DNA of 64,000 bases, from assembly GCA_030522415.1 (NCBI GenBank), contig CM060121.1:24638142-24702141 (forward strand), written 5' to 3'. A program made the translations under genes and the position numbers. Origin of the DNA: Channallabes apus (lineage: Eukaryota > Chordata > Actinopteri > Siluriformes > Clariidae). Below the pieces are notes generated by a model, which searched no databases, had not been told where the DNA came from, and saw nothing but the letters and a program-made list of their open reading frames with translations. This document shows, one piece after another, positions 2,936 through 60,802 of the stretch. Position 1 is the first letter of the stretch. Each line of letters starts with the position of its first letter.

Positions 2936-4553
2936 CAGTGGTGTGAAAAACTATTTGCCCCTTCCTGATTTCTTATTCTTTTGCATGTTTGTCACACTTA
3001 AATGTTTCTGCTCATCAAAAACCGTTAACTATTAGTCAAAGATAACATAATTGAACACAAAATGCAGTTTTTAAATGAAGCTTTACGTTATTAAGGGAGA
3101 AAAAAAACTCCAAATCTACATGGCCCTGTGTGAAAAAGTGATTGCACCCTTGTTAAAAAATAACTTAACTGTGGTTTATCACACCTGAGTTCAATTTCTG
3201 TAGTCACCCCCAGGCCTGATTACTGCCACACCTGTTTCAATCAAGAAATCACTTAAATTGGAGCTACCTGACACAGAGAAGTAGACCAAAAGCACCTCAA
3301 AAGCTAGACATCATGCCAAGATCCAAAGAAATTCAGGAACAAATGAGAACAAAAGTAATTGAGATCTATCAGTCTGGTAAAGGTTATAAAGCCATTTCTA
3401 AAGCTTTGGGACTCCAGCGAACCACAGTGAGAGCCATTATCCACAAATGGCAAAAACATGGAACAGTGGTGCACCTTCCCAGGAGTGGCCGGCCGACCAA
3501 AATTACCCCAAGAGCGCAGAGACGACTCATCCGAGAGGCCACAAAAGACCCCAGGACAACATCTAAAGAACTGCAAGCCTCATTTGCCTCAATTAAGGTC
3601 AGTGTTCACGACTCCACCATAAGAAAGAGACTGGGCAAAAACGGCCTGCATGGCAGATTTCCAAGGCGCAAACCACTTTTAAGCAAAAAGAACATTAAGG
3701 CTCGTCTAAATTTTGCTAAAAAACATCTCAATGATTGCCAAAACTTTTGGGAAAATACCTTGTGGACCGACGAGACAAAAGTTTAACTTTTTGGAAGGTG
3801 CGTGTCCCGTTACATCTGGCGTAAAAGTAACACAGCATTTCAGAAAAAGAACATCATAGCAACAGTAAAATATGGTGGTGGTAGTGTGATGGTCTGGGGT
3901 TGTTTTGCTGCTTCAGGACCTGGAAGGCTTGCTGTGATAGATGGAACCATGAATTCTACTGTCTACTAAAAAATCCTGAAGGAGAATGTCCGGCCATCTG
4001 TTCGTCAACTCAAGCTGAAGTGATCTTGGGTGCTGCAGCAGGACAATGACCCAAAACACACCAGCAAATCCACCTCTGAATGGCTGAAGAAAAACAAAAT
4101 GAAGACTTTGGAGTGGCCTAGTCACAGTCCTGACCTGAATCCTATTGAGATGTTGTGGCATGACTTTAAAAAGGCGGTTCATGCTAGAAAACCCTCAAAT
4201 AAAGCTGAATTACAACAATTCTGCAAAGATGAGTGGGCCAAAATTCCTCTAGAGCGCTGTAAAAGACTCGTTGCAAGTTATCGCAAACGCTTGATTGCAG
4301 TTATTGCTGCTAAGGGTGGCCCAACCAGTTATTAGGTTCAGGGGGCAATTACTTTTTCACACAGGGCCATGTAGGTTTGGATTTTTTTTCTCCCTAAATA
4401 ATAAAACCTCTCATTTAAAAACTGCATTTTGTGTTTACTTGTGTTATCTTTGACTAATAGTTAAATGTGTTTGATGATCAGAAACATTTTGTGTGACAAA
4501 CATGCAAAAGAATAAGAAATCAGGAGGGGGGCAAATAGTTTTTCACACCACTG
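2936..4553 (+). mobile_element. Tc1-like DNA transposon with long inverted repeats, copy 1
   Basis: It is bounded by TA duplications at 2934-2935 and 4554-4555. The termini CAGTGGTGTGAAAAACTATT and its reverse complement open inverted repeats of roughly 200 bp or more; the left arm runs to about 3150 and the right arm starts near 4345. Length is 1,618 bp. A second copy at 34684-36304 is almost identical. It contains one transposase frame with three internal stops, so it cannot encode its own transposase. Confidence 0.95.
3313..4335 (+). pseudogene. Tc1-like transposase, full length with three in-frame stops
   Basis: This is a DD34E cut-and-paste transposase frame of 341 codons without a frameshift but with stops at 3784 (TAA), 3967 (TAA) and 4021 (TGA). 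Residues about 15-60 form the first helix-turn-helix (GKGYKAISKALGL). The GRPTK hook comes near residue 60, and a second DNA-binding helix region follows. Catalytic residues are visible at WTDET, QQDND and NPIE, with 34 residues between the second Asp and the Glu. The protein ends ...AAKGGPTSY. The second copy at 35062 has Gln and Arg codons where this copy has the stops at 3967 and 4021. The stop at 3784 is shared by both copies. Confidence 0.95.
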
Positions 4554-10333: not shown

Positions 10334-11679
10334 TGTTGTGAGCTTAAAGAGATGTTATTAGTCCTGTGTGGTGTAGTGATGATTGAGAGACCTTATCGCC
10401 TGCGGGAAGAAGCTCCTCTTCAGTCTCTCTGTGTTGGCCTTCAGGGAGCGGAATCGCTTCCCAGACCGCAACAAAGAGAACAGTCCATTACTGGGGTGAC
10501 AGGGAGCTCGGTGCGGATGATGCGCTCAGCTGATCGCACCACCCTCTGTAGAGCTCGTCTGTCCTGCATGGTGCTGTTCCCGAATCAGGTCGTGTTGTTT
10601 CCCGTCAGGATGCTCTCTATGGTGCAGGAGTAGAAGTTCCTGAGCACCTTGGAGGGCAGTCTAAAGTCTCTCAAGCGTCTGAGGTGGTACAGACGCTGCC
10701 TGGCCTTTTTCACCACGGTGTTGATGTGACAGGACCATGACAGGTCCTGAGTGATGTGAACACCGAGGTATCTGAAGCTGTCCACTCTCTCCACTGGGCT
10801 CCCGTTGATGACGGTGATCTGGTAGTTCCTCTCCTGCTTTGTACAAATGTCCACTATCAGCTCCTTTGTCTTGCTGACGTTCAGGAGGAGATTGTTCCTC
10901 TGGCACCAGTTCTCCAGATTTCCAATCTCCTCTAGGTAGTCCGACTCATCATTGTTGGTGATCAGTCCGACCACGATGGTGTCGTCAGCAAACTTGATGA
11001 TGGTGGTGGAGTTGGTAGTGGCCACGCAGTCGTGGGTGTACAAAGAGTACAGCAGGGGGTTCAGAACACAACCCTGGGGGGCTCCAGTGCTGAGAGTGAG
11101 TGTAGCTGAGACATGTCCGCCCATCCTTACTGCCTGTGGTCTGCCAGTCAGAAGATTGGAGATCCACTGACACATTGATGAGCTGAGTCCCAGGTGCTCC
11201 ATCTTGGTGGTGAGTGTGGAGGGAATTATGGTATTAAATGCAGAGCTGTAGTCGATGAAGAGCATTTTAACATAATTCCCTTTCCTAGTGTCCAGGTGAG
11301 TAAGTGATGTGTGGAGGAGATGAGAGATTGCATCGTCTGTGGAACGGTTCTGACGGTATGCAAACTGTAGTGGGTCCAGTGTGTCGGGTAGTGAAGAAAT
11401 GATGAAGTCTCTGACCAGGCGTTCAAAGCACTTCATCACTACTGAGGTAAGGGCTACAGGGCGATAGTCGTTGACGGAAGCTGGATGGGGTTTCTTTGGG
11501 ACAGGAACAATGATGGACTCCTTGAAGCAAGTGGGGATCACCGACTGAGATAAAGAGATGTTGAATATCTCAGTGAACACAGGTGCTAGCTGGTCTGCGC
11601 AGGATCTGAGAATACGACCTGAGATGCCGTTTGGTCCTGCTGCTTTCCTGGTGTTCACTCTCCTGAAGGCTCTCCTCAC
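10334..11679 (-). pseudogene. Reverse transcriptase of the jockey-group LINE (copy at 9430)
   Basis: The RT copies LINE RNA at the nicked target. Minus-strand motifs in order are [66 protein letters not shown], and the catalytic box FADDTIVV (F-A-D-D instead of the usual Y-A-D-D, as in the copy at 24720). After these come [16 protein letters not shown] and the thumb region. The open frame 10585-11679 holds 364 residues and ends where the C-terminal part is out of frame. The last segment, at 10334-10580, still encodes RRALQRVVRSAERIIR-like sequence but has lost a block compared with the copy at 25150-25400. Confidence 0.9.
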
Positions 11680-11869
11680 GTCGTGCTCGGTGATGATGAG
11701 CGCGTTCCCGGGCTGGCAGTGTCTTCCTGTCTGCAGCCGTTAGCGCCGCTAGCATTAGCGCCATTAACATTAGTGCCGCTAGCATTAGCATCGCTAGCGT
11801 CTTTAGCTGCAGCCTCGAAGCGAGCATAGAAAATGTTGAGCTCGTCTGCCAGAGTCGCGTCCGCGTTCG

Positions 11870-13035
11870 TCATACCGGTTGTTGGTGTTTTATAGCCAAC
11901 ATAATTATCCTTAATCCCTGCCACAGGCTCCTAGAGTCACTCTGTTGAAGCTGTGACTCTAGTTTCCTTCCATATCGCTGCTTCGCCTCTTTCACCGCTT
12001 TCCGGACGTTGTATGATGCAGCCTTGTATGGTTCCATGTCCCCCGACGCAAGTCCCGTGTTGTAGGCAGTGGTGCGAGATCTCAGAGCGTCGCGGATGGT
12101 TTTATCCACCCACGGCTTCTGGTTGGGAAACGTTCTGATAGTCTTTTTCTCCACCATATCATCCGCTAGCTTCCTAATAAATCCCACAACCGCTTCCGTA
12201 AACACGCTGACGTCATCATCGGAGCTGTTTCTGAACATGTCCCAGTCTGCGTCATCGAGTGCGTCCTGTAATGCGGCCACCGATTGGTCCGTCCAGTGCG
12301 CGACCACCCTCTGAACCGGAACTTCCTGTTTCAGCCTTTGTTTGTATTTTGGCATGAGGAAGATGGCGGCGTGGTCGGATTTACCAAACGCTGGACGAGA
12401 TTGTGCCTTGTAGCCGTCCTTGACCGTTGTATAACAATGATCTAGTGTCCTATCACCCCTGGTGGGGCAGGTGATATGCTGATGAAAGTTCGGCGATGCG
12501 CGTTTGAGGTTGGCACTGTTAAAGTCCTCCGCCACAATAAGCGCAGAGTCCCGGTGCTGTGTCTGGTGCTGTGTGAGCAACTCGTGCAGCTCGCATAAGG
12601 CAATGTCTGTGTCTGCTTGTGGTGGAATGTAAACGGCACTTATTATGACCGATGTGAACTCCCGTGGAAGATAAAAAGGACGACACATGATGGACAGTAG
12701 TTCCAGGTTTGGTGTGCAGGAGCGTGTAAGAGGAACAACGCTCGCGCTGTTGCACCAGCTGTTGTTCATGATTAAGCACATGCCGACTTCCCCGAGTCCC
12801 GCGTCCTGTCCATGCGGTGAACCGAGAAGAACTCGGCTGGTTGTATGGCGTGGTCTGGCACCGCCGGGTTCAGCCATGTCTCGGTGAAGCAGAGGAGATT
12901 GCAGTCCCGAATGTCTCTCTGGAACTTTATCCTGGCCCTGAGGTCATCGAGTTTGTTCTCCAGTGACTGGACGTTGGCGAGCAGGATGCTAGGCAGAGGT
13001 GTGCGGTGTGCACGGGCCCTCAGCCTGTTCCTCAC
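11870..13035 (-). pseudogene. AP-type endonuclease of the jockey-group LINE (copy at 9430)
   Basis: This domain nicks target DNA to prime reverse transcription. Visible motifs are LLANVQSLENKLDDLRARI, LCFTETWLNP (catalytic Glu), AVYIPPQADTD, a DFN motif in which the usual preceding Gly is Glu (VAEDFNSAN), and GKSDHAAIF (catalytic Asp-His). A roughly 10-bp deletion near 12785 shifts the frame between the two open segments 12772-13035 and 11870-12877. A second frameshift near 11900 separates it from a low-complexity Asn/Ala linker at 11676-11890, which leads into the RT. Confidence 0.88.
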
Positions 13036-13331
13036 GCCGGCTCGTTTCCCTCAGGGCCGCCGCTTATACTTTAAGAAATGAAGGTCAGTCGGTCTGAAAA
13101 ATCTCAAGAACTTTGAAGGTGTGCGGATAAAGTGCCCTCACCAAAATCATCAAATGCTATAAGGTAACTGGCTTTCATGTTGACCATTCCAGTAAAGGAA
13201 GACCAAGAGCTACCGCTGCTGCAAAGGATAAGTTTATTAGAATAACCAGCTGCAGAACGCGATGATTTACAGTACCTCAGATTAGAAATCACATAAATGC
13301 TTCTTGGAGTTCAAGTAGACATATTTCAACA

Positions 13332-13596
13332 CTGTGAGAGTCCTTATAGCAAATCGCGTGAATCGCGTTCATGTGAGTACTCACTTCCTTGGCTTTACTT
13401 TCAGACAGAGTGTGTGTTTATAGGACTAGGGTTAGATTGTGTCTTTCCTTTGCTCATTTACTGTGAGAGTCCTTATAGCAAATCGCGTGATTATCCTGCC
13501 CGCTCGTGTCCATCCGCGTTTGGGTTTACCATTCACGCTACAGGGCTAACTGCTAAAGCTATCGTCTTTCTGGTCACCCCGGGTTAGTTCCTGACA
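13332..13596 (+). repeat. Chromovirus LTR fragment with a rearranged 5' part
   Basis: From about 13371 to 13596 it matches the minus strand of the chromovirus LTRs at 56016-56240 and 60532-60760, ending GGTTAGTTCCTGACA. The first 40 bp instead repeat an internal LTR block (GAGAGTCCTTATAGCAAATC) that occurs again in its normal place at 13464-13490. It interrupts the Tc1 relic. Confidence 0.85.
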
Positions 13597-13865
13597 GAAG
13601 GAGAGTGATGTAGTGCTGCATCAGATGATCTGGTTCCCTCAATCACTTCATCTACTGTAAATGCATTTGAGATTTTTTGGGAACTCAACAAGTACTCAAC
13701 ATCTCTGGGAACTCAGGCAATTTAGGATTTAATTTGAGGGCCATTAACTTTTAAAGCACATACTGTATGTGTGAAAAATAGTCTTCATATTCCCATAATA
13801 ACTCTGTAACAATTTGCAATTTTACTCATGTCATCGGGAAAGCAAAAAGAAAATATATTTAAGGG

Positions 13866-15955: not shown

Positions 15956-16101
15956 ATAAGCTCTGTGGGTGCTCAATTGGATTGTGATCTATGGAGTGTG
16001 AAGGCCTGTTTGGCAGCTTTGGTAACTTTGCCTGCTGGGTCCACTGCACGATGGGCTGTGGTGCACTGGGTGGTTTGGTGCCTTGTCCTGCATTGACTTT
16101 T
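15956..16101 (-). pseudogene. Tc1-like relic (CAGCCATAAC-end family), split by the LTR element
   Basis: On the minus strand the block around 15965-16010 corresponds to the PDLNPIEHLW region of a common fish Tc1 family, and the 16040-16095 block to its DNA-binding part. It continues at 20441-20520 (GACGGGCTGGCC, GAGCCTTGGG). The same family is seen in the other orientation at 43902-44330. The relic is the target into which the 16102 element inserted. Confidence 0.6.
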
Positions 16102-16266
16102 TGTGACGGTTGACCCCTAGAGGGCGCCTAACGCCCGTTTTGACTTTTGTAGTTCGTTTTAAGTTTCGTTTTTTGGACTTCATTTCCCAGTTTGCACCTC
16201 GGTCAGGTGACGTAGAAGCTCACCTGAACCGAGGGAAGTTAATTTGATAATTATGTTTAGGTTTGC

Positions 16267-16274
16267 TATAAATA
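16267..16274 (+). promoter_or_regulatory. TATA box of the LTR promoter
   Basis: TATAAATA lies 31 bases upstream of 16298, the base from which the LTR becomes complementary to the primer site. The spacing is that of a standard RNA polymerase II core promoter. The same box is repeated in the 3' LTR. Confidence 0.8.
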
Positions 16275-16297
16275 GCCTGGCTGAACTCCAGCCAGGC

Positions 16298-16307
16298 GTC
16301 TAGCATT
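16298..16307 (+). promoter_or_regulatory. Inferred RNA 5' end / self-primer
   Basis: GTCTAGCATT is the exact reverse complement of AATGCTAGAC at 16447-16456. In Tf1/sushi-type elements the 5' end of the RNA folds back onto the primer site and primes minus-strand synthesis instead of a tRNA. Position relative to the TATA box supports this as the transcript start. Confidence 0.75.
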
Positions 16308-16358
16308 AGTCTTAAGTTTAGTTTGTGTTGGAGTGGGTTTGTTTATGTTCAAAGCAAA

Positions 16359-16364
16359 AATAAA
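16359..16364 (+). promoter_or_regulatory. Polyadenylation signal in the LTR
   Basis: AATAAA about 60 bases after the inferred start site. The copy in the 3' LTR would end the transcript; the one here must be bypassed. Confidence 0.6.
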
Positions 16365-16399
16365 GAACTTTGTTAAACCGTCAGCTCGCCTCCGCAATC

Positions 16400-19300
16400 A
16401 TGCCTCGCACACACCTCCGACGCAGACACCGTAAGAAACATGACAGAATGCTAGACCTACCCAGAGGCATGGCGGAGGATCTCCTCCTAGGGAATTACTC
16501 GGGAGGAGAAATTATCATCTCCAACGAGCTGGCGAAACTGCTGGAGGCCGGCGAGGAGCACGGCGAAATGGAAGTGGAGCAGGTATGGAGAAACGGCGAA
16601 CACATCGAGCCGGTGAGCTCAGGGAAGGACAGCATGACAGCCAGAGAGAGACAGGCGAGGCGAAGCTGGGAAGGCTGCGGACCCGTCATCCGGCGCACAC
16701 CGCCGAGAGGTGTAGCGGCCGAGGGAGAGACGGGAGGATTCTGCAGGCAGTGGGCGGAACGCAACGAGGAGTGCATTCATGACCTGCGCGAGCAGGTGCT
16801 GCAGCTCCAACTGCAGTTCGTCCAGGTTCGGGAGAACCAAGCTGTAGTCCCGGAAGCGATCCCTCTCTCGGATCTGGACGATGCACTCCTCCCACGGCCA
16901 CTGCCTGAAGGTGGCGCGGACAGCACACCGGAGCTGAGCACGGAGGACTGGACGCCGCTTCAGCACGGCGACGAGGTAGGCTTCTACAGGCAGTGGGCGG
17001 AGTCCAACCAGGAGCGCATTCGTGACCTGCGCGAGCAGGTGCTGCAGCTCCAACTGCAGTTCGTCCAGGTTCGGGAGAACCAGTCTATAGCCCCGGAAGT
17101 GATCCCTCTCCCGGGTCTGGACGATGCGCTCATCCCCCGACCACTGCCTGAGCCTGTCGCGGAGGAAGACTGCGCGCCGTGTCTGCGCGAAGAACAAAAC
17201 GGCGCGTCCATCATCCAGTCTCCGTGCAAGCTAGCGAGCGCCGTGCACGCGCCAACGCTGCAATCGAGCGCCGTGCACGCTCCAACGCTGCAGGAGAGCG
17301 CCGTGCACGCTCCAACGCTGCAGGAGAGCGCCGTGCACGCTCCAACGCTGCAGGAGAGCGCCGTGCACGCTCCAACGCTGCAGGAGAGCGCCGTGCACGC
17401 TCCAACGCTGCAGGAGAGCGCCGTGCACGCTCCAACGCTGCAGGAGAGCGCCGTGCACGCTCCAACGCTGCAGGAGAGCGCCGTGCACGCTCCAACGCTG
17501 CAGGAGAGCGCCGTGCACGCTCCAACGCTGCAGGAGAGCGCCGTGCACGCTCCAACGCTGCAGGAGAGCGCCGTGCACGCTCCAACGCTGCAGGAGAGCG
17601 CCGTGCACGCTCCAACGCTGCAGTTGAGCGCCGTGCACGCTCCACCGTTGCAGTTGAGCGCCGTGCACGCTCCACCGTTGCAGTTGAGCGCCGTGCACGC
17701 TCCACCGTTGCAGTCGAGCGCCGTGCACGCTCCACCGTTGCAGTCGAGCGCCGTGCACGCTCCAACGCTGTCGAGCCCTGCACAAGCTCCAACGACCAAG
17801 ACACCTGTTCTGCCGCCGCCTCCCGGCTTCGAGGATAGCGAGCTAGCACGCCAGCAGCCGCTGTCCCATGCACCTGTTCTGCCGCCGCCTCCCGGCTTTG
17901 AGGATAGCGAGCTAGCACGCCAGCAGCCGCTGTCCCATGCACCTGTTCTGCCGCCGCCTCCCGGCTTCGAGGATAGCGAGCTAGCACGCCAGCAGCCGCT
18001 GTCCCATGCACCTGTTCTGCCGCCGCCTCCCGGCTTCGAGGACAGCGAACCAGCGTGTCAGCAGCAGCTGACCGATGCTCCTGTTCTGCCGCCGCCTCCC
18101 GGCTTTGAGGACGACGTTACGCTGCTGTCGAGCGCCGAGTACGCTCCAACGCCGCTGTCGAGCGCCGAGTACGCTCCAACGCCGCTGTCGAGCGCCGAGT
18201 ACGCTCCAACGCCGCTGTCGAGCGCCGAGTACGCTCCAACGCCGCTGTCGAGCGCCGAGTACGCTCCAACGCCGCTGTCGAGCGCCGAGTACGCTCCAAC
18301 GCCGCTGTCGAGCGCCGAGTACGCTCCAACGCCGCTGTCGAGCGCCGAGTACGCTCCAACGCCGCTGTCGAGCGCCGAGTACGCTCCAACGCCGCTGTCG
18401 AGCGCCGAGTACGCTCCAACGCCGCTGTCGAGCGCACTGCACGCTCCCTCGCCGCTGTCGAGCGCACTGCACGCTCCCTCGCCGCTGTCGAGCGCACTGC
18501 ACGCTCCCTCGCCGCTGTCGAGCGCACTGCACGCTCCCTCGCCGCTGTCGAGCGCACTGCACGCTCCCTCGCCGCTGTCGAGCGCACTGCACGCTCCCTC
18601 GCCGCTGTCGAGCGCACTGCACGCTCCCTCGCCGCTGTCGAGCGCACTGCACGCTCCCTCGCCGCTGTCGAGCGCACTGCACGCTCCCTCGCCGCTGTCG
18701 AGCGCACTGCACGCTCCCACGCCGCTGTCGAGCGCACTGCACGCTCCCACGCCGCTGTCGAGCGCACTGCACGCTCCCACGCCGCTGTCGAGCGCACTGC
18801 ACGCTCCCACGCCGCTGTCGAGCGCACTGCACGCTCCCACGCCGCAGTCGAGCGCAGTGACCGCTCCACCGCCGCAGTCGAGCGCAGTGACCGCTCCACC
18901 GCCGTCGTCGAGCGCAGTGACCGCTCCACCGCCGTCGTCGAGCGCAGTGACCGCTTCAACGCCGCTGTCGAGCTCTGCAAAAGCTCCAACGCAGTCGTCG
19001 AGCTCGGCACAAGCTCCAACGCAGTCGTCGGGCTCTGCACAAGCTCCAATGCAGTCGTCGAGCTCTGCACAGGCTCCAACGCAATCGTCGAGCTCTGCAC
19101 AGGCTCCAACGCAATCGTCGAGCTCTGCACAGGCTCCAACGCAATCATCGAGTTCTGCACAGGCTCCAACGCAATCGCCGAGCTCTGCACAGGCTCCAAC
19201 GCAATCGTCGAGCTCTGCACAGGCTCCAACGCAATCGTCGAGCTCTGCACAGGCTCCAACGTCGTCGTCGAGCTCTGCACAGGCTCCAACGTCGTCGTCG

Positions 19301-20110
19301 AGCTCTGCACAGGCTCCAACGCCGTCGTCGAGCGCCGTGCACGCTCCAACGCCGTCGTCGAGCGCCGTGCACGCTCCAACGCCGTCGTCGAGCGCAGTGA
19401 CCGCTCCAACGCCGTCGTCGAGCGCAGTGACCGCTCCAACGCCGTCGTCGAGCGCAGTGACCGCTCCAACGCCGTCGTCGAGCGCCGTGCACGCTCCAAC
19501 GCCGTCGTCGAGCGCAGTGACCGCTCCAACGCCGTCATCGAGCGGAGTGACCGCTCCGGCGCCGTCGTCGAGCACAGTGACCGCTCCAACGCCGTCGTCG
19601 AGTGCAGTGACCGCTCCAACGCCGTCGTCGAGCGCAGTGACCGCTCCAACGCCGTCGTCGAGCGGAGTGACCGCTCCGGCGCCGTCGTCGAGCGCAGTGA
19701 CCGCTCCAACGCCGTCGTCGAGCGCAGTGACCGCTCCAACGCCGTCGTCGAGCGCAGTGACCGCTCCAACGCCGTCGTCGAGCGCAGTGACCGCTCCAAC
19801 GCCGTCGTCAAGCACGTCACCAGCCCTGCCACGGCCGAGCACGTCACCAGCCCTGCCACGGCCGAGCACGTCACCAGCCCTGCCACGGCCGAGCACGTCA
19901 CCAGCCCTGCCACGGCCGAGCACGTCTCCAGCCCTGCCACGGCCGAGCACGTCTCCAGCTCTGCCACCGCCGAGCACGTCTCCAGCCCCGTCACCCAGCC
20001 TCCTGGTCAGGAGGTGGAAGGTAGAACATTGGGGTGGGTGTCCGGGGCCTCCGATGATGCTCCAGAGGAGCATTTTTTTTTGGGGGGGTACTGTGACGGT
20101 TGACCCCTAG
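16400..20110 (+). CDS. Giant Ser/Ala/Pro-rich repeat protein of the LTR element (function unknown)
   Basis: One uninterrupted frame runs from inside the 5' LTR to a TAG in the 3' LTR. The ATG at 16400 gives 1,236 residues with a basic start (HLRRRHRKKH). The ATG at 16448, inside the primer site, gives 1,220 and is where the chromovirus at 56016 starts its gag. Residues 1-113 are mixed and charged. About 114-254 are two copies of an 81-residue module with a Leu/Gln coiled coil (LREQVLQLQLQFVQVRENQ) and LPRPLPE. 280-459 are 18 copies of SAVHAPTLQE-like decamers. 469-573 are VLPPPPGFEDSE units. 578-1137 are 56 in-phase decamers of the form SSAxxAPxPx. About 1138-1200 are STSPALPRP units. The tail crosses the polypurine tract (WGGTV). 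There is no enzyme motif. A Gag-like or structural role in cis is possible but unproven; it could also be a filler ORF kept open only by repeat expansion. Confidence 0.75.
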   Translation: MPRTHLRRRHRKKHDRMLDLPRGMAEDLLLGNYSGGEIIISNELAKLLEAGEEHGEMEVEQVWRNGEHIEPVSSGKDSMTARERQARRSWEGCGPVIRRTPPRGVAAEGETGGFCRQWAERNEECIHDLREQVLQLQLQFVQVRENQAVVPEAIPLSDLDDALLPRPLPEGGADSTPELSTEDWTPLQHGDEVGFYRQWAESNQERIRDLREQVLQLQLQFVQVRENQSIAPEVIPLPGLDDALIPRPLPEPVAEEDCAPCLREEQNGASIIQSPCKLASAVHAPTLQSSAVHAPTLQESAVHAPTLQESAVHAPTLQESAVHAPTLQESAVHAPTLQESAVHAPTLQESAVHAPTLQESAVHAPTLQESAVHAPTLQESAVHAPTLQESAVHAPTLQESAVHAPTLQLSAVHAPPLQLSAVHAPPLQLSAVHAPPLQSSAVHAPPLQSSAVHAPTLSSPAQAPTTKTPVLPPPPGFEDSELARQQPLSHAPVLPPPPGFEDSELARQQPLSHAPVLPPPPGFEDSELARQQPLSHAPVLPPPPGFEDSEPACQQQLTDAPVLPPPPGFEDDVTLLSSAEYAPTPLSSAEYAPTPLSSAEYAPTPLSSAEYAPTPLSSAEYAPTPLSSAEYAPTPLSSAEYAPTPLSSAEYAPTPLSSAEYAPTPLSSAEYAPTPLSSALHAPSPLSSALHAPSPLSSALHAPSPLSSALHAPSPLSSALHAPSPLSSALHAPSPLSSALHAPSPLSSALHAPSPLSSALHAPSPLSSALHAPTPLSSALHAPTPLSSALHAPTPLSSALHAPTPLSSALHAPTPQSSAVTAPPPQSSAVTAPPPSSSAVTAPPPSSSAVTASTPLSSSAKAPTQSSSSAQAPTQSSGSAQAPMQSSSSAQAPTQSSSSAQAPTQSSSSAQAPTQSSSSAQAPTQSPSSAQAPTQSSSSAQAPTQSSSSAQAPTSSSSSAQAPTSSSSSAQAPTPSSSAVHAPTPSSSAVHAPTPSSSAVTAPTPSSSAVTAPTPSSSAVTAPTPSSSAVHAPTPSSSAVTAPTPSSSGVTAPAPSSSTVTAPTPSSSAVTAPTPSSSAVTAPTPSSSGVTAPAPSSSAVTAPTPSSSAVTAPTPSSSAVTAPTPSSSAVTAPTPSSSTSPALPRPSTSPALPRPSTSPALPRPSTSPALPRPSTSPALPRPSTSPALPPPSTSPAPSPSLLVRRWKVEHWGGCPGPPMMLQRSIFFWGGTVTVDP
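16447..16456 (+). other. Self-priming primer binding site overlapping a start codon
   Basis: AATGCTAGAC starts one base after the 5' LTR and is complementary to 16298-16307. It contains an ATG (16448) in frame with the long ORF. The chromovirus primer site at 60520-60530 has the same one-base spacer and also contains its gag ATG. Confidence 0.75.
16739..17160 (+). repeat. Duplicated 243-bp coiled-coil module
   Basis: The copy at 16739-16981 and the copy starting at 16982 both encode GF(C/Y)RQWAE.N.E.I.DLREQVLQLQLQFVQVRENQ and end in ALxPRPLPE. Differences are mostly single substitutions, so the duplication is not old. The heptad-like Leu/Val spacing suggests a coiled coil and hence multimerisation of the protein. 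Confidence 0.85.
17237..17776 (+). repeat. 30-bp tandem array A (18 units, SAVHAPTLQE)
   Basis: Eighteen units in coding phase. Units 3-12 are almost all identical, with TLQE; units 13-17 change to PLQL/PLQS. Block-wise homogeneity points to recent local expansion. Confidence 0.95.
17804..18118 (+). repeat. 69-bp tandem array B (4.5 units, VLPPPPGFEDSE)
   Basis: Units begin at 17804, 17873, 17942, 18011 and 18080 (partial). Each encodes PVLPPPPGFEDSELARQQPL or a variant. A proline run followed by an acidic aromatic patch resembles short protein-binding motifs, but no partner can be named. Confidence 0.93.
18131..18430 (+). repeat. 30-bp tandem array C (10 units, SAEYAPTPLS)
   Basis: Ten units with no differences that I can see; the most homogeneous block of the ORF. 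Confidence 0.95.
18431..18850 (+). repeat. 30-bp tandem array D (14 units, SALHAPSPLS / SALHAPTPLS)
   Basis: Nine Ser-type units followed by five Thr-type units, differing by one base (TCG versus ACG). In phase with arrays C and E. Confidence 0.95.
18851..18970 (+). repeat. 30-bp tandem array E (4 units, SAVTAPPP)
   Basis: Four units, the last with SerThrPro. It is a transition block; the SAVTAP core recurs in array G. Confidence 0.93.
18971..19330 (+). repeat. 30-bp tandem array F (12 units, SSAQAPTQSS)
   Basis: Twelve units with scattered substitutions (for example Met for Thr in unit 4, Pro in unit 8), so it looks somewhat older or less homogenised than C and D. Confidence 0.93.
19331..19810 (+). 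repeat. 30-bp tandem array G (16 units, SAVTAPTPSS / SAVHAPTPSS)
   Basis: Sixteen units mixing VTAP and VHAP types. A two-variant pattern with APAP at 19555 and 19675 recurs 120 bp apart, suggesting a higher-order duplication of four units. Confidence 0.93.
19811..19999 (+). repeat. 27-bp tandem array H (7 units, STSPALPRP)
   Basis: Seven units, the last two diverged (LPPP, APSPS). Here the period drops from 30 to 27 bp, still keeping frame. Confidence 0.92.
20082..20091 (+). other. Polypurine-type tract before the 3' LTR
   Basis: GGGGGGGTAC directly precedes TGTGACGG. The same GGGGGGGTAC precedes the 3' LTR of the chromovirus (56385-56394, minus strand). The adjacent T-run (20073-20081) is unusual for such a tract. 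Confidence 0.75.
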
Positions 20111-20440
20111 AGGGCGCCTAACGCCCGTTTTGACTTTTGTTTTGTAGTTCGTTTTAAGTTTCGTTTTTTGGACTTCATTTCCCAGTTTGCACCTCGGTCA
20201 GGTGACGTAGAAGCTCACCTGAACCGAGGGAAGTTAATTTGATAATTATGTTTAGGTTTGCTATAAATAGCCTGGCTGAACTCCAGCCAGGCGTCTAGCA
20301 TTAGTCTTAAGTTTAGTTTGTGTTGGAGTGGGTTTGTTTATGTTCAAAGCAAAAATAAAGAACTTTGTTAAACCGTCAGCTCGCCTCCGCAATCATGCCT
20401 CGCACACACCTCCGACGCAGACACCGTAAGAAACATGACA
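20092..20440 (+). repeat. 3' LTR of the non-autonomous element
   Basis: 349 bp. It appears identical to the 5' LTR except for five extra bases after GACTTTTG. It contains the stop codon of the long ORF (20108-20110). Confidence 0.95.
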
Positions 20441-20520
20441 CTTTTCTGTTAGATTGGACGGGCTGGCCTTTTACATGTGTGAGCCTTGGGTTCACATGAT
20501 CTTGTTACCAGTTTACTAGT
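20441..20520 (-). pseudogene. Right part of the Tc1 relic interrupted by the LTR element
   Basis: Begins with the CTTTT duplication. GACGGGCTGGCC and GAGCCTTGGGTTCACATGAT correspond, reversed, to the second DNA-binding segment of the Tc1 family also present at 43902-44330. Confidence 0.6.
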
Positions 20521-23095: not shown

Positions 23096-24240
23096 ATGGA
23101 GAACATTAGGTATGATAGAGACACTCTTGCTTCTATTGGTATACAATGTACTCACAATTCAACGTTTTTAACTCCGGATCCGAGCTGGCCGAGTGAGATC
23201 CTGAGGGAGAACAGAGGACGCGACGCGAAGCGGCGGCCCCGAGGGAAACGAGCCGGCATCAGGAACAGGCTGAGAGCCCGTGCACACCGCACACCTCTGC
23301 CTAGCATCCTGCTCGCCAACGTCCAGTCACTGAAAAAAAACAAGCTTGACCTCAGGGCCAGGATAAAGTTCCAGAGAGACATTCGGGACTGCAATCTCCT
23401 CTGCTTCACCGAGACATGGCTGAACCCAACGGTGCCGGACTACACCATACAACCAGGCAAGTTCTTCATGGTTCACCGCATGGACAGGATGCGGGACTCG
23501 GGAAAGTCAAGGGGAGGCGGCGTGTGTTTAATGGTGAACAACAGCTGGTGCAACAGCTCGAGCGTTGTTCCTCTTACAGTACATGCTCCTGCACACCAAA
23601 CCTGGAACTACTGTCCATCATGTGTCGTCCTTTTTATCTTACACGGGAGTTTACATCGGTCATAATCAGCGCCGTTTATATTCCACTACAAGCGGTCACG
23701 GACACTGCCTTATGCGAGCTGCACGAGGCGCTCACACAGCACCAGACACAGCACCGGGACGCTGCACTCATTGTAGCGGGGGACTTTAACAGTGCCAACC
23801 TCAAACGCGCATCGCCGAACTTTCATCAGCATATCACCTGCCCCACCAGGGGTGATAGGACACTAAATCATTGTTATACAACGGTCAAGGACGGCTACAA
23901 GGCACAATCTCGTCCATCGTTTGGTAAATCCGACCACGCCGCCATCTTCCTCATGCCAAAATACAAACAAAGGCTGAAACAGGAAGTTCGGGTTCAGAGG
24001 GACTTCGCGCGCTGGACGGACCAATCGGTGGCCGCGTTACAGGACGCACTTGATGACGCAGACTGGGACATGTTCAGGAACAGCTCCGATGATGACGTCA
24101 GCGTGTTTACGGAAGCGGTTGTGGGATTCATTGGGAAGCTAGCGGATGATACGGTGGAGAAAAAGACTATCAGAACGTTTCCCAACCAGAAGCCGTGTGT
24201 GGATAAAACCATTCGCGACGCTCTGAGATCTCATCCTGCT
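23096..24240 (+). pseudogene. LINE AP-endonuclease, frameshifted
   Basis: A start at 23096 gives MENIRYDRDTLASIG and a basic stretch before LPSILLANVQSL. Catalytic motifs are CFTETWL, VAGDFNSAN (intact GDFN, unlike the copy at 12520) and GKSDHAAIF. The frame changes near 23330 (an A-run) and near 23575. It ends in TIRDALRS, where the deletion begins. Confidence 0.88.
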
Positions 24241-25410
24241 TCATCGCCCTGTAGCCCTCACCTCAGTAGTGATGAAGTGTTTTGAACGCCTGGTCAAGGA
24301 CTTCATCATTTCATCTCTACCAGACACACTGGACCCTCTACAGTTCGCTTACCGTCCAAATCGTTCTACTGACGATGCCATCTCTCAACTCCTCCACACA
24401 TCACTTACTCACTTGGACACTAGAAGGGGGAATTATGTTAAAATGCTCTTCATCAACTACAGCTTTGCATTCAATACCACAATTCCCTCCACACTCACCA
24501 CCAAGCTGGAGCACCTGGGACTCAGCTCATCTCTGTGTCAGTGGATCTCCAAGTTCCTAACTGGCAGACCACAGGCAGTAAGGATGGGCGGACATGTCTC
24601 AGCCTCCACAACTCTCAACACTGGAGCCCCCCAGGGGTGTGTTCTGAGCCCCCTGCTGTACGCTTTGTACACATACAGTATGACTGTATGGCCACTACCA
24701 GCTCCACCACCATCATTAAGTTTGCTGATGACACCGTCGTGGTGGACCTGATCTCTGATAACAACGAGACGGCCTACCTGAAGGAGATTAGGAAAGTGGA
24801 GAACTGGTGCCAGAGGAACAACCTCCTTCTAAACATCAGTATGACAAAGGAGTTGATAGTGGACTTCAGCACTAAGCAGGAGAGGAACTACCAGACCCCC
24901 ATCATCAATGACAGCCCAGTGGAGAGAGTGGACAGCTTCAAATACCTCGGTGTTCACATCACACAGGACCTATCATGGTCCTGTCACATCAACACCGTGG
25001 TGAAAAAGGCCTGACAGCGTCTCTACCACCTCAGGCGTTTGAGAGACTTCCGACTGCCCTCCGAGGTGCTCAGGAACTCCTGCACCATAGAGAGCATCCT
25101 GACGGGAAACATCTCAACCTGGTTCGGGAACAGCACCATCCAGGACAGACAAGCTCTACAGAGGGTGGTGCGATCAGCTGAGCGCATCATCCGCACCGAG
25201 CTCTATGACCTGCACTCGATCTACAGCAGGCGGTGCTGGACCAAGGCCAGGAAGATCGTGAAGGACCTCAGCCATCCCAACAATGGACTGTTCTCTCTGT
25301 TGAGGTCAGGAAAGCGATTCGGCTCCCTGAAGGCCAACACAGAGAGACTGAGGAGGAGCTTCTTCCCGCAGGTGATACGGTCTCTCAATCACACCACCAC
25401 ACAGTACTGA
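24241..25410 (+). pseudogene. LINE reverse transcriptase, frameshifted
   Basis: RT from MMKCFERLV onward: [28 protein letters not shown] (the first catalytic Asp of the F-I-D-Y motif is Asn here), [41 protein letters not shown], a TGA after VVKKA at about 25012, then the thumb and C-terminal part ending RSFFPQVIRSLNHTTTQY. A frameshift separates GAPQG from FADD at about 24680. The first RT motifs are lost in the internal deletion. Confidence 0.9.
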
Positions 25411-34683: not shown

Positions 34684-36304
<1,621 letters not shown>

Positions 36305-42348: not shown

Positions 42349-43889
42349 CAAACCGGATTCCAAAAAAGTTGGAACAGAATGCAATGATGTGGAGATGGCA
42401 AATGTCAATATTTTATTCAGAATAGAACATAGATGACAGATCAAAAGTTTAATCCGAGAAAATGTATCATTTTAAAGGAAAAATATGTTGATTCCAAATT
42501 TCACGGTGTCAACAAATCCCAAAAAAGTTGGGACAAGTAGCAATAAGGCTGGAAAAAGTAAATTTGAGCATAACGAAGAGCTGGAAGACCAATTCACAGT
42601 AATTAGGTTAATTGGCAACATGATTGGGTATAAAAAGAGCTTCTCAGAGTGGCAGTGTCTCTCAGAAGCCAAGATGGGTAGAGGATCACCAATTCCCACA
42701 ATGTTGCGCAGAAAGATAGTGGAGCAATATCAGAAAGGTGTTGCCCAGCGAAAAATTGCAAAGACTTTGCAGTTATCATCATCAACTGTGCATAATATCA
42801 TCCGAAGATTCAGAGAATCTGGAACAATCTCTGTGCGTAAGGGTCAAGGGCGTAAAATCATACTGGATGCCCGTGATCTCCGGGCCCTTAAACGACACTG
42901 CACCACAAACAGGAATGCTACTGTAAAGGAAATCACAGAATGGGCTCAGGAATACTTCCAGAAACCATTGTCAGTGAACACAATCCACCGTGCCATCCGC
43001 CGTTGCCAGCTGAAACTCTACAGTGCAAAGAAGAAGTTATTTCTAAGCAAGATCCACAAGCACAGGCGTTTTCATTGGGCCAGGGATCATTTCAAATGGA
43101 GTGTGGCAAAATGGAAGACGATTCACAATTCGAAGTTCTTGTTGGAAATGTGGGACGCCATGTCATCCGGACCAAAGAGGACAAGGACAACCCAAGTTGT
43201 TATCAACACTCAGTTCAGAAGCCTGTATCTCTGATGGTATGGGGTTTCATGAGTGTGTGTGGCATGGGCAGCTTTCATGTCTGGAAAGGCACCATCAATG
43301 CAGAAAAATATATTCAGGTTCTAGAACAACATCTAGTCCTCTCTTTCAGGGAAGACCCTGCATTTTTCAACAAGATAATGCCAGACCACATTCTGCATCA
43401 ATCAGAACATCATGGCTGCGTAGGAGAAGGATCCGGGTACTGAAATGGCCAATCTGCAGTCCAGATCTTTCCCCTATAGAGAACATTTGGCGCATCATAA
43501 AGAGGAAGGTGCGACAAAGAAGGCCCAAGACGATTGAACAGTTAGAGGCCTGTATTAGACAAGAATGGGCGAGCATTCCTATTTCTAAACTTGAGAAACT
43601 GGTCTCCTCTGTCCCCAGACGTCTGTTGAGTGTTGTAAAGAGAAGGGGAGATGCCACACAGTGGTGAAAATGGCCTTGTTCCAACTTTTTTGGAATTTTT
43701 TGGAACACCATGACATTTTGATTCACCATATTTTTCCCTTAAAATGATACATTTTCTCAGTTTAAACTTTTGTTCCGTGATTTATGTTCTATTCTGAATA
43801 AAATATTGACATTTGCCATCTCCACATCATTGCATTCAGTTTTTATTCACAATTTGTTTAGTGTCCCAACTTTTTTGGAATCCGGTTTG
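42349..43889 (+). mobile_element. Tc1-like DNA transposon (CAAACCGGATTCC ends)
   Basis: TA duplications at 42347-42348 and 43890-43891. The ends CAAACCGGATTCCAAAAAAG and complement open inverted repeats of roughly 100 bp or more, each holding the block ATGATGTGGAGATGGCAAATG. Length is 1,541 bp. A different family from the elements at 2936 and 34684. Confidence 0.95.
42674..43667 (+). pseudogene. Tc1-like transposase with two frameshifts
   Basis: MGRGSPIPTMLRRKIVEQYQ opens the helix-turn-helix (GVAQRKIAKTLQLSSSTV). A second helical domain and the KWSVAKWKT block follow. A deletion near 43115, removing about four residues just before the first catalytic Asp (D-D-S-Q-F where S-D-E-S-K-F is usual), shifts to the second frame. 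That frame carries GRHVIRTKEDKDNPSCYQH and SLMVWGFMSVCGMGS. A second shift near 43340 leads to FQQDNARPHSASIRTSW and SPDLSPIENIW (34 residues between Asp and Glu), ending KRRGDATQW. Confidence 0.93.
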
Positions 43890-48689: not shown

Positions 48690-48813
48690 CACAAACTGTG
48701 GGCAATATGGGAACATCAATTAGCCTAACCTGCATGTCTTTGGTTCACCAAGAATGGGAAGAACATGCACACAGACCTGAGGCGGGAAATTGAACCCCTG
48801 AAGGTGCAAGGCA
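48690..48813 (-). repeat. SINE S1 relic split by the LINE
   Basis: GGGCAATATGGGAACATCAATTA, AACCTGCATGTCTTTGG and GGTGCAAGGC are the S1 middle and head. The missing end (CAACAGTGTTAATCACTAATG) resumes at 51217-51250 after the LINE. The AAGGCA duplication is at 48808-48813 and 51212-51217. Confidence 0.85.
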
Positions 48814-48819
48814 CTTCCT

Positions 48820-51023
48820 GTTCATTAGACCCAATCCCCTCCACAATGCTCCAGGCAATCTCACAAGACCTCCTTCCCTTCACCACAACAATCATCAACC
48901 ATTCCATATCATCTCGTCATGTTCCTGCTGCTTTTAAGAAGGCAAGGGTTATTCCCATCTTCAAAAAACCCTGCCTGGACCCATCAGAAGTTAACAACTA
49001 TCGCCCAGTATCACTTCTCTCTTTTATTTCCAAAATTCTTGAAAGAACTGTTTATAACCAAATGTCTTTTTATCTCTCACAGAACAACCTTAATGATCCC
49101 AAACAATCTGGATTCAAAGTGGCACATTCCAAAGAGACTGCCCTTCTGTCAGTCACTGAGAAGCTCCATGCTGCAAGATCTGCTAAACTGTCATCTGTTC
49201 TCATCCTCCTGGACCTGTCAGCTGCATTTGACACAGTGAACCACAAGATTCTATTATCTATTCTTACAAGCCTTGGAATTTGTGGAACAGCGTGGCAATG
49301 GTTTGCTTCATGGTTTCCAATCTCGAGATTGGATTATTGTAACTCGCTATATTATGGTGCTCAAAATAAAGTCTTAAATAGATTGCAGATGGTCCAGAAT
49401 GCGGCTGCAAGACTGCTTACAAGCACGTGCAAATTCGAACATATTACTCCGGTGTTAAAAGCTCTGCATTGGTTGCCTGTCACTTTTAGGATAAATTAAA
49501 AAATTTTAGTATTTGTTTTCAAATCTTTACATGGTTTAGCACCAACCTACAGTATATTGCTGATCTAATCCAGGAACAAAAGTCAACGAGATTACTACGA
49601 TCTCAATCACAGAAACTTCTTGTTGTTCCTCGGTCTAAGATGAGGTCTAGAGGGGACCTCGCTTTTGCGGTCGCTGCCCCTAATTTATGGAACAGTTTGC
49701 CTTCATATATTAGGGACTTGCCTACGCTTGGCCAGTTTAAAAGCCATCTGAAGACATATTTTTTTATGATAGCGTTCGATCAAGGATAAGTGTGAAGGGC
49801 GTTAGTGTCATGTATTTCTTTTTTAAACTCTTTCTTTTTTAAACTCTATTTTAGATATATGGCTATATTTTGTCTTTTATCTGTCTCTTGTTGCTTATTG
49901 TTTTATTGTTTGTACAGCACTATGGTCAACATTGTTGTTTTATTCGGTGCTTTAGAAATAAATTTGAATTTGAATTTAAATTTTAATTAGCTTCTTACCT
50001 AGAAGATAGGTCATATGAGGTAACATGGAGGGCATTTACATCTGCCTCACGTAGACTCTCTACTGGTGTCCCACAGGGCTCAGTACTTGGTCCTCTTCTG
50101 TTCTCCCTCTATACCCGGTTGATTGGTAAAGTCATATCATCGCATGGATTTTCATACCATTCTTATGCAGATGACACCCAACTTACTCTCTCCTTTCCTC
50201 CCTCTGACACTCAGGTTTCCACCCGGATCTCAGCATGTCTGGCAGACATCTCATCCTGGATGGCTGTACATCAGCTGAAGCTCAATCTGAGTAAAACTGA
50301 ACTGTTGTTCATCCCTTGTGACTCATCCCCAGGTCAAGACCTTGTGATATCCCTGGATAACAACCAAATCACTCTTTCAGCCACTGCCCGCAATCTTGGG
50401 GGAACCGTGGACAATCATCTGTCATTTTCCCCACACATCGCTAACCTTACCCGCTCTTGTAGATTTCTTCTTTACAATATCAGAAGAATTCGCCCTTTCT
50501 TCACAGAGAAGAAGAATTTCTTTCTTCACAGGCTACTCAGGTGCTTGTTCAGTCCCTTGTTATTTCAAGACTGGACTACTGCAACTCACTCCTGGCAAGT
50601 CTGCCTCTGTCCACGATACGTCCTCTGCAACTGATCCAGAATGCAGCAGCACGTCTCGTTTTTAATCTCCCCAAGTTCTCCCACACCACCCCACTCCTCC
50701 GCTCCCTGCACTGGCTTCCTGTACCTGCCCGCATCAAATTCAAAACGCTGATGCTTGCCTACAAAGCTAAAAATGGCCCAGCACCCACTTACCTCTCTGC
50801 TCTAATCACACCACACACTGCACCACGTTCCCTCCGATCCTCCAGCACTGCTCGCCTCATCCCACCATCTCTCAGGGATCGAGGGCGGCATTCATCCAGG
50901 CTCTTTTCTGTTCTGGCACCTAGGTGGTGGAACGAACTTCCTCTAGATGTCCGTACAGCAGAGACTTTGACTATCTTTAAACGACGACTCAAGACGCATC
51001 TGTTTCTCCAGTACTTGGACTAA
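48820..51023 (+). pseudogene. Reverse transcriptase of the L2-like LINE, interrupted
   Basis: RT motifs in order: AFKKARVIPIFKKPCLDP, NNYRPVSLLSFISKILER, QSGFKVAHSKETALL, VLILLDLSAAFDTVNH (first catalytic Asp). Then the inserted fragment 49317-49987, and RT again: STGVPQGSVLGPLLFSLY, YHSYADDTQLTLSF (catalytic Y-A-D-D), LKLNLSKTELLFIP, and after a frameshift near 50540 SLVISRLDYCNSLLASLP, LHWLPVPARIKFKTLMLAYK, and the end RRLKTHLFLQYLD followed by TAA. The endonuclease is absent, lost by 5' truncation. The first half is in frame with the inserted LINE's RT end, producing a chance fusion frame to 49499. Confidence 0.92.
49317..49987 (+). mobile_element. Short fragment of another L2/CR1-like LINE
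   Basis: Encodes ISRLDYCNSLYYGAQNKVLN, QNAAARLLTSTCKFEHITPV and LHWLPVTFRIN, then, after a frame break, RSRGDLAFAVAAPNLWNSLP and a 3' UTR ending in AATAAATTTGAATTTGAATT. GCTTC occurs before the insertion (49307-49311) and after it (49990-49994), the likely target duplication. The surrounding RT resumes exactly at YLEDR. Confidence 0.88.
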
Positions 51024-51429
51024 CCTCCCCCCCTCCCCCACCCAAAAAATAAAAAATCTCTCTTCCCAGTTGTGTTCGACTAATGGCACTTAGTTATTAA
51101 CCTAGTTAACCCAGTGTAAGTATGTATCCAGTGATGTAAACTTTAAAGCACTTTTTGTAAGTCGCTCTGGATAAGAGCGTCTGCCAAATGCCTAAATGTA
51201 AATGTAAATGTAAGGCAACAGTGTTAATCACTAATGCCACCATGGGTTTAATAGCAACAGTCTGAGAAGATCATCGGAGACTTCTCAAGCTACAGTCTGT
51301 CCTTATGTCCCTCTGTATTTTCCTAAACCAACTGTCAAATTTAGTCTCTTCTGGTTCTTGGGTCTTCGTTGTATGCTCCATCCCATAGGACATGAGTATT
51401 ATATTTCTAGTGGGTGTTTGGATACAGTA

Positions 51430-55810: not shown

Positions 55811-56015
55811 TAATGTACAAGTGGGGTACAGTTCCGAATGTTCACATACAGTAATCGACTGCAGTGGGCTCCGAGCCATCTCGGCTGGAATCGACATTAA
55901 CAGACGTGTACAGCTTTACTGCAACTAAGGGTCTCATCATTGTTCTGTGCTTGAGGTTTTTCTGTCAAAGTCAGTCAGTTTTACTCCTTTCCTCTGCTCC
56001 TAAGTCTTGATTTTG

Positions 56016-56384
56016 TCACGAAACTAACCGGGATGACCAGAAAGATGATAGCTTTAGCAGTTAGCCCTGTAGCGTGAATGGTAATCCCAAACGCGGATGG
56101 ACACGAGCGGGCAGGATAATCATAAGGATTTGCTATAAGGACTCTCACAGTAAATAAGCAAAGGAAAGACACAATCTAACCCTAGTCCTATAAACACACA
56201 CTCAGTCTGAAAGTATAGCCAAGAAAGTGAGTACTCACATAGACAGGAACGATTCCGAAAAGGCCTGGGCATAACTCAATGACAGAGCGATGTGCGGCGC
56301 CATCTTGTTTCCTTTTATGCTTTCAGGTTCGCGACCGTCTTACTTCCGGGTCCTAGTGCCGGTCGCGGCTGAGTGTGCATGACA
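56016..56384 (-). repeat. 3' LTR of the chromovirus
   Basis: On the minus strand it starts TGTCATGCACACTCAGCC right after the GGGGGGGTAC tract and ends GTTTCGTGACA. The 369-bp length includes an upstream part (56289-56384) that the 5' copy lacks, an ATAAAAG TATA-like box (56312-56318) and the self-primer (56278-56288). Confidence 0.88.
56278..56288 (-). promoter_or_regulatory. Inferred RNA 5' end / self-primer of the chromovirus
   Basis: Minus-strand GCTCTGTCATT starts about 30 bases after ATAAAAG and is the exact reverse complement of the primer site AATGACAGAGC at 60520-60530. Eleven matching bases is also the length reported for the fission yeast Tf1 self-primer (from memory). Confidence 0.75.
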
Positions 56385-60529: not shown

Positions 60530-60530
60530 T
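60520..60530 (-). other. Self-priming primer binding site of the chromovirus, overlapping the gag ATG
   Basis: Minus-strand AATGACAGAGC begins one base after the 5' LTR and is fully complementary to 56278-56288. The gag start codon is at 60527-60529, inside it. Confidence 0.78.
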
Positions 60531-60531
60531 C

Positions 60532-60802
60532 TGTCATGAAACTAACCCGGATGACCAGAAAGATGATAGCTTTAGCAGTTAGCCCTGTAGCGTGAATGGT
60601 AAACCCAAACGCGGATGGACACGAGCGGGCAGGATAATCACGTGATTTTCTATAAGGACTCTCACAGTAAATGAGCAAAGGAAAGACACAATCTAACCCT
60701 AGTCCTATAAACACACACTCAGTCTGAAAGTATTGCCAAGAAAGTGAGTACTCACATAGACAGGAACGATTCCGAAAAAGCCTGGGCATAACTCAATGAC
60801 AG
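60532..60802 (-). repeat. 5' LTR of the chromovirus, lacking the upstream part
   Basis: Matches the 3' LTR from CTGTCATTGAG to the TGACA end but lacks the 82-100 bp that would hold the TATA box. Similarity ends within 4 bases of the inferred RNA start. Beyond it lies a LINE coding sequence. Confidence 0.85.

Follow-up and report, generated by a model that had tools for sequence, protein, structure and literature searches.

Can a retrotransposon that encodes no enzyme evolve a gene of its own? The question is raised by a long terminal repeat (LTR) element at positions 16102 to 20440 (plus strand) of a 64,000-nt stretch of the genome of the clariid fish Channallabes apus (GenBank assembly GCA_030522415.1, contig CM060121.1, positions 24,638,142 to 24,702,141 of the forward strand), here called the window, in which a single open reading frame (ORF) runs from one LTR into the other. 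We confirm that this element is a young LTR retrotransposon without an enzyme gene and find that it belongs to a high-copy family with hundreds of copies in the genome. We further consider it probable that the family is non-autonomous, self-primed and mobilised in trans, that it is of the Tf1/sushi (chromovirus) type, and that it carries a gene of its own.

The LTRs of the element have the termini TG...CA, differ by one TTTTG unit only and are flanked on both sides by CTTTT, just as the original prediction had it (LTRs identical except for a 5-bp indel, and a perfect CTTTT duplication). LTRs among 40 scored genome matches are usually 349-352 nt long, which makes the window 5' LTR the length outlier. 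With its LTRs, polypurine tract (PPT) and 5-bp target-site duplication (TSD), the element has this part of the Tf1/sushi feature set:
16097 to 16101, unstranded: left TSD, CTTTT
16102 to 16445, plus strand: 5' LTR, 344 nt, shorter than the 3' LTR by one TTTTG unit
16268 to 16275, plus strand: TATA box TATAAATA in the LTR, recognised by sequence
16359 to 16364, plus strand: AATAAA polyadenylation signal in the LTR, recognised by sequence
20073 to 20091, plus strand: T run and PPT GGGGGGGTAC, abutting the 3' LTR
20092 to 20440, plus strand: 3' LTR, 349 nt
20441 to 20445, unstranded: right TSD, CTTTT
Rfam gave no match within the element up to an E value of 0.1, and a tRNA gene search of the 64-kb window, run with bacterial settings, found none.

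Searches of the 1.165-Gb genome revealed the size of the family, which is not visible from the window. An LTR search scored the best 40 of 3,109 candidates, all of them 95-100% identical to the query, and the exact PPT-LTR junction GGGGGGTACTGTGACGG occurs at 241 sites (the reversed-sequence control gave 0). The N-terminal region of the ORF has at least 139 genome matches in the main family (2,550 candidates), and that of a second subfamily, introduced below, at least 150; both are lower bounds, from searches that score the best candidates only. From a first batch of 20 LTR-similar regions we read 18 further full copies (only one LTR was seen in L027, and the plus-strand copy of L028 was not read whole). 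Perfect 5-bp TSDs flank 17 of these copies, and every one of the 18 has a primer site and the PPT, with GAATGCTAG following the LTR; their LTR pairs show 0-2 base differences. A second, more distant batch of 20 lower-ranked N-terminal matches gave 17 copies with both LTRs, 14 of them with perfect TSDs (L036, L045 and L046, each without one LTR, were excluded). Internal lengths of the copies read range from 1,768 to 8,312 nt, with long frames. The longest interior, about 8.3 kb in L048, arose through repeat expansion, and its reading frame stays open for about 2,300 codons until it meets a stop; in L032, GAATG (the start of the internal region) follows the 3' LTR, so that this copy may belong to a tandem LTR-internal-LTR-internal array.

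How such copies could replicate is suggested by a second set of signals, absent from the original prediction:
16298 to 16307, plus strand: predicted RNA 5' end and self-primer GTCTAGCATT (putative start site)
16447 to 16456, plus strand: primer-binding site (PBS) AATGCTAGAC, complement of 16298 to 16307, paired with it in the minimum-energy fold
56011 to 60830 (ends approximate), minus strand: a distinct Tf1/sushi-type chromovirus, with separate open pieces for gag, protease, reverse transcriptase (RT), integrase, SH3_Tf2-1 and chromodomain
Positions 16298-16307 are an exact 10-nt complement of the PBS, which lies one base inside the 5' LTR boundary, and the primer begins about 30 nt past the start of the TATA box (31 nt, by 0-based count, in most copies). 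A full 10-nt match between the PBS and at least one LTR was found in 35 of 36 copies. In the minimum-energy fold of 16298-16470 (z -2.57) primer and PBS are paired, as they are in all 31 copies folded, a set that leaves out L017, L025, L034 and L047 (no primer motif in the 5' LTR) and L048. The helix also covaries: the window element has GTCTAGCATT/AATGCTAGAC and the second subfamily GTCTAGCTTT/AAAGCTAGAC, a compensatory change on both strands, and there too the fold pairs them.

A self-primer complementary to a site beside the 5' LTR is a trait of the Tf1/sushi group, present here given the predicted RNA start; according to a plant survey, such self-primers have been described in members of this group from yeast and vertebrates (PMC6317226). 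The group's gag-pol with RT, integrase and chromodomain was detected neither by a Pfam scan of the ORF nor, within the elements of L009-L058, by tblastn with the chromovirus pieces. We do not class the element as a Tf1/sushi member; it uses the replication design of that group. It has the cis signals of the group without the enzymes, and the proteins must therefore come from elsewhere. The chromovirus of the window, which played no part in the original prediction of the element, shows the type of helper meant: it has the same self-primer layout with an 11-nt complement, a truncated 5' LTR and a similar polypurine end. It serves as an example of the type only. In the scheme we favour, the RNA would start at 16298 and fold, its first 10 nt would serve at 16447-16456 as the primer for its reverse transcription, and proteins of a co-resident chromovirus would package, copy and integrate it. 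Elsewhere in the window, 13323-13604 is a piece of the LTR of the window chromovirus; it may be a remnant that begins with a short direct duplication.

The feature that sets the family apart is its frame:
16400 to 20110, plus strand: ORF of 1,236 codons, from an ATG in the 5' LTR to a TAG in the 3' LTR, kept in many copies
16730 to 16834, plus strand: module A, first predicted long helix (AlphaFold2, low confidence), with a near-identical core in module B
16964 to 17089, plus strand: module B, second predicted long helix (AlphaFold2, low confidence)
17236 to 17770, plus strand: array A, 17.8 copies of a 30-nt unit (AVHAPTLQES type)
17802 to 18111, plus strand: array B, 4.5 copies of a 69-nt unit (APVLPPPPGFEDSELARQQPLSH type)
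18127 to 19813, plus strand: array C, 56.2 copies of a 30-nt unit (SSAxxAPTPL types)
19811 to 19988, plus strand: array D, 6.6 copies of a 27-nt unit (STSPALPRP)
19997 to 20078, plus strand: conserved C-terminal tail (SLLVRRWKVEHWGGCPGPPMMLQRSIFF), recurring across subfamilies and sampled sites
No stop interrupts this frame from 16364, in the 5' LTR, to the TAG at 20110, and the arrays amount to about 74 decapeptides, so that both the single uninterrupted LTR-to-LTR frame and the more than 70 short repeats of the original prediction stand. Besides the first ATG, those at 16448 and 16469 could serve as starts, and the latter (MAED...) has the better start context as judged by eye. Two coiled-coil modules had also been proposed, and here the outcome is mixed: AlphaFold2 does return two long helices (residues 88-122 and 166-207, numbered from MAED), with a predicted local distance difference test (pLDDT) score of about 45-63 in these blocks, which leaves their coiled-coil nature weakly supported. 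A Pfam scan of the ORF found no enzyme domain, as anticipated, and no Gag domain; the only hits were low-complexity matches below the cut-offs (Extensin_1, Decapeptide). Neither PF03732 nor a Ty3 capsid profile matches the ORF, whereas the gag piece of the window chromovirus does match.

Does the frame encode a protein? Its openness over the arrays is weak evidence of that, because several other frames, on both strands, are also open there; nor does codon-position bias within the arrays give any sign of coding. Better evidence comes from the roughly 261 non-repetitive codons, over which the other five frames hold 4-10 stops. In 5,000 first-order Markov simulations, which preserve dinucleotide composition, the given frame was open over this part in 0.02% and any plus frame in 0.28%; a minus-strand frame of 203 codons also spans it. 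Searches for protein homologues at E <= 10 found none for residues 1-290 or the full length (4,460 candidates) and none for the N-terminal 278 aa (3,485 candidates), in a protein set that includes fish proteins and from which frames discarded as repeats might be missing. For a positive control we searched with the RT piece of the window's chromovirus, which brought up 5,234 proteins at E <= 1e-20; fishes account for most of the species-named entries among the 120 listed, although the top scorer is from a frog. In viral contigs no relative was found, by protein or by LTR pattern.

Evidence that the frame is kept comes from the other copies. It is open from LTR to LTR in 24 of the 36 main-family copies read whole: in 17 of 19 of the first batch, window copy included (frame length about 780 to 1,590 codons; L015 and L026 are frame-shifted), and in 7 of the 17 copies of the second batch. 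The single copy of the second subfamily that we read is intact as well. The interior of the intact copies is taken up by the protein, about 600-1,590 codons in length. The protein is preserved as far as the T run of the polypurine region, and because this run varies, the stop falls in differing frames of the 3' LTR. Over the N-terminal 258 codons the window copy and 18 others have neither stop nor indel, and the sole length difference in the N-terminal part among the 35 copies compared is one in-frame 12-nt block. More widely, 133 of the 139 main-family N-terminal matches listed are stop-free and 100 lie within frames of at least 1,000 aa, and 136 of the 150 listed for the second subfamily are stop-free. 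Long frames are commoner among the closer N-terminal matches (63/70 vs 37/69, P 1.5e-6), an excess that may reflect subfamily instead of age. The tail SLLVRRWKVEHWGGCPGPPMMLQRSIFF is complete or partial at nine of ten sampled PPT-LTR sites (lost in L053).

The second subfamily provides the longer evolutionary view. Its representative, on the minus strand of L028, has LTRs that are 77% identical to those of the window element by blast (58 of 334 aligned sites differ, about 17%), one mismatch between its own LTRs and the target duplication TTATG. Its frame is open from LTR to LTR and holds the same kinds of array as the window element, the tail in altered form and a much altered N-terminus, 36% identical to that of the main family according to the alignment tool.

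Among the alternatives to a gene that serves through its protein, we first consider that the frame is open for the RNA's sake: translating ribosomes would shield the transcript from nonsense-mediated decay or keep it unfolded, with stops and frameshifts selected against and amino-acid changes tolerated. Variation within the main family suits this idea. In 229 codons of 35 copies (L031, without the start motif, was left out) we counted 63 synonymous, 119 missense and one nonsense variant, against 117 missense and 7.1 nonsense variants expected when mutation is modelled with the transition bias seen in the data and with a CpG effect; nonsense variants are thus depleted (P 0.005) and missense variants neutral. 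A check suggested earlier, for stops and frameshifts accumulating in the N-terminus at neutral rates, was run in part and gave a divided answer, with the nonsense count falling well short of neutrality and the missense count agreeing with it. A 19-copy run (22 synonymous, 43 non-synonymous, 0 stops; 43-46 non-synonymous and 2.3-2.7 stops expected) is not significant alone, and the missense share is only slightly smaller in shared variants than in private ones (52:33 missense to synonymous vs 67:30 plus one stop). Repeat periods that are all divisible by three, and arrays that differ in length between copies with the frame often preserved, fit the idea as well.

Comparison between the subfamilies speaks for the protein instead. 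Over 77 alignable N-terminal codons dN (non-synonymous divergence) is 0.40 and dS (synonymous divergence) 1.04, a dN/dS of 0.38 (Fisher P 0.0015, on rounded counts); in an alignment of 13 sequences, including one from the second subfamily, 47 columns do not vary. The short tail (30 codons) has a between-subfamily dN/dS of 0.64. Together with the broken copies described below, the N-terminal figures lead us to regard the RNA explanation as unlikely. The helix cores (16730-16834 and 16964-17089) are the least variable part, synonymous sites included; synonymous depletion in the helix bins has a P of 0.0002, the bins having been picked after viewing the data, and low synonymous variation in these modules could possibly be an RNA signal or result from exchange or gene conversion between them.

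A second alternative concerns where the protein acts: intact copies might make it and intact and broken copies alike use it, the family retaining enough working genes. The broken copies are what gives this weight. Four of them (L015, L026, L032, L044) have identical LTRs, L048 has no LTR mismatch and one gap, and L033 has one mismatch. Intactness does not follow LTR divergence: taking all copies, 17 of 23 are intact at 0-1 mismatches, 2 of 5 at 2-3 and 5 of 8 at four or more, and the same classes of the second batch give 1/5, 1/4 and 5/8. Judged by LTR divergence, there is therefore no support for copies starting out intact and decaying over time. Broken copies would have come from broken templates, or have been broken during or soon after copying. 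In 11 of 12 of them the N-terminus is open and the frame reaches the arrays before its first stop, and only L030 has an N-terminal stop; frames break mostly in the arrays, perhaps during repeat copying. Broken copies with identical LTRs argue against the protein being strictly required in cis and leave room for action in trans, and the breakage data lower the odds of our preferred reading. That most of the listed N-terminal matches are still stop-free also agrees with sharing. The depletion of stops speaks against this alternative, since selection should be weak on a trans-acting gene that serves hundreds of copies, and we take a protein supplied in common to be improbable, if worth keeping in mind.

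Less likely again is that the family derives by deletion from an autonomous element that shares its LTR and has not yet been met. Such an ancestor must once have existed, given the chromovirus-type PPT, LTR ends and self-primer, and beyond the N-terminal matches only 10 of the 241 PPT-LTR sites have been sampled. Neither these sites nor the copies supply it. With tblastn of the window chromovirus pieces no pol similarity was found inside the copies in L009-L048, the sole similarity in these regions lying beyond the element, at the edge of L035, where a remnant matches at 82% over 50 aa. The ten further PPT-LTR sites (L049-L058, chosen by eye among 100 listed of the 241 and without an N-terminal match) all bear array sequence, and no pol was seen at them. 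The ORF matches no Gag or pol profile, and plain deletion leaves its 260-codon N-terminus without known homologues unexplained. Copies with LTRs and target duplications and without pol support a non-autonomous family, as expected from the window, and a simple deletion derivative, which had been named as a possible outcome, finds no support so far.

Very doubtful, in our judgement, is a frame with no function, open by chance of composition and by repeat expansion in copies too young for decay. Neutral missense variation within the family, intactness unrelated to LTR age and arrays that are by nature open in several frames would all allow it. The non-repeat N-terminal part, with its one open plus frame, is rare in simulation, however, and the subfamilies, with LTRs 17% apart, both hold the frame, most matches of both being stop-free. 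Taken with the stop depletion and the between-subfamily dN/dS, this disfavours the earlier suggestion of an ORF kept open by repeat expansion alone. Host genes are known to be captured by LTR elements. That a chromovirus took up a host gene for a Ser/Ala/Pro-rich repeat protein would fit both this precedent and the ORF's want of retroviral homology, but a protein set rich in fish proteins holds no homologue and we think such capture highly improbable, even allowing that a diverged single-copy host gene would escape genome searches that list the best candidates only.

Several further observations weigh against the reading we prefer, that of a self-primed, trans-mobilised family with its own gene. 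Mobilisation by a chromovirus is something we infer. L014 retains 8 of the 10 nt of the primer match, and the 5' LTRs of L017 and L047 are without the primer. An ATG at 16345, in another frame, lies upstream of the ORF; third codon positions in the arrays are no more variable than other positions; and the whole AlphaFold2 model, with a mean pLDDT of 38.7, is a poor model of a fold. Protein-level constraint comes from a single comparison of 77 codons aligned by amino acid, and the missense counts within the family, neutral overall and only slightly lower among shared variants, point the other way.

If a self-primed parasite with its own gene is nonetheless what we are seeing, its protein would serve the element, not the host, and most likely as a Gag-like ribonucleoprotein scaffold: RNA would be bound by the basic segment encoded by U5, oligomerisation would fall to the helices, and the Ser/Ala/Pro arrays would form a disordered, flexible spacer whose unit number can change. 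The stretch encoded by U5 is indeed basic. We offer this scaffold role, taken alone, as a tentative possibility. The arrays themselves have a history of their own. The 30-nt array A unit occurs in exact copies in both subfamilies, 14 times in L028 and 11 times in the window element; for the 69-nt array B unit the counts are 4 and 2. Arrays shared letter for letter between elements with diverged LTRs and N-termini were therefore probably transferred after those parts had split, a likely route being template switching between co-packaged RNAs. A bolder proposal, to which we give rather less credence than to the scaffold role, is that the lineage dropped all canonical genes and replaced Gag by a single fast-evolving, minisatellite-built scaffold, its length changeable during reverse transcription and its arrays swapped between subfamilies, and so became a dedicated parasite competing for chromovirus particles.

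The element lies among other repeats. Two LINE-like copies (10380-13065 and 23228-25391; LINE, long interspersed nuclear element), inverted and 86-95% complementary in pieces, flank its region, and one of the pair has an RVT_1 match. Tc1/mariner transposase copies lie at 3220-3786, 34969-35535 and 42476-43667, the first two within a 99% identical 300-nt direct repeat, and RT pieces at 48729-51197 are followed by an Rfam UnaL2 LINE 3' element at 51144-51197.

How does the family compare with known systems? A pol-less element with one long in-frame repeat protein was not among the entries listed in searches of the open-access text of PubMed Central (PMC; Repbase and subscription journals are outside this scope), in keeping with the impression that no described family has such an architecture. 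TR-GAG elements, large retrotransposon derivatives (LARDs) and terminal-repeat retrotransposons in miniature (TRIMs) resemble it in being non-autonomous LTR elements. TR-GAG elements retain Gag; our element, unlike them, has no intact Gag domain recognisable by PF03732 or a Ty3 capsid match. TRIMs have a short internal domain (PMC6934838), whereas the interiors here, 1,768-8,312 nt with long frames, are not those of a short element. Tandem minisatellites occur within the soybean Gypsy retrotransposon Gmr9/GmOgre; there they lie between the coding region and the LTR (PMC3305785), unlike our arrays, which are inside the coding frame.

Closest in replication are the Tf1/sushi chromoviruses (Tf1, sushi-ichi; Ty3/Gypsy, Metaviridae), which share the TG...CA LTRs, the 3' polypurine tract and a self-primer from the RNA start in place of a tRNA; the element differs from them in having no gag, protease, RT, RNase H, integrase or chromodomain and, in their stead, one repeat-built ORF. 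As to coding content, the nearest described case we found is wheat RLG_Sabrina (PMC9744471). RLG_Sabrina and RLG_WHAM are presented there as high-copy, non- or semi-autonomous Gypsy families without RT and integrase that are thought to be cross-mobilised, with RLG_Wilma named as the likely autonomous partner of RLG_Sabrina; several RLG_Sabrina variants have other coding sequences at the place of GAG-Pro, and four encode short proteins without wheat homology. High copy number and missing RT and integrase are common to these families and ours, as is, for RLG_Sabrina, coding content of another kind. The differences are that theirs encode short proteins or GAG-Pro and that ours, self-primed and in a vertebrate, encodes a protein about 600-1,590 codons long. 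Among the non-autonomous LTR elements described so far, many are left over from deletions or have kept Gag. If our reading is correct, a retrotransposon parasite can instead evolve its own gene. Its hundreds of copies, most of them still keeping an unrelated repeat protein of about a thousand codons, would then present one low-complexity protein in many natural lengths, beside a covarying self-priming site.

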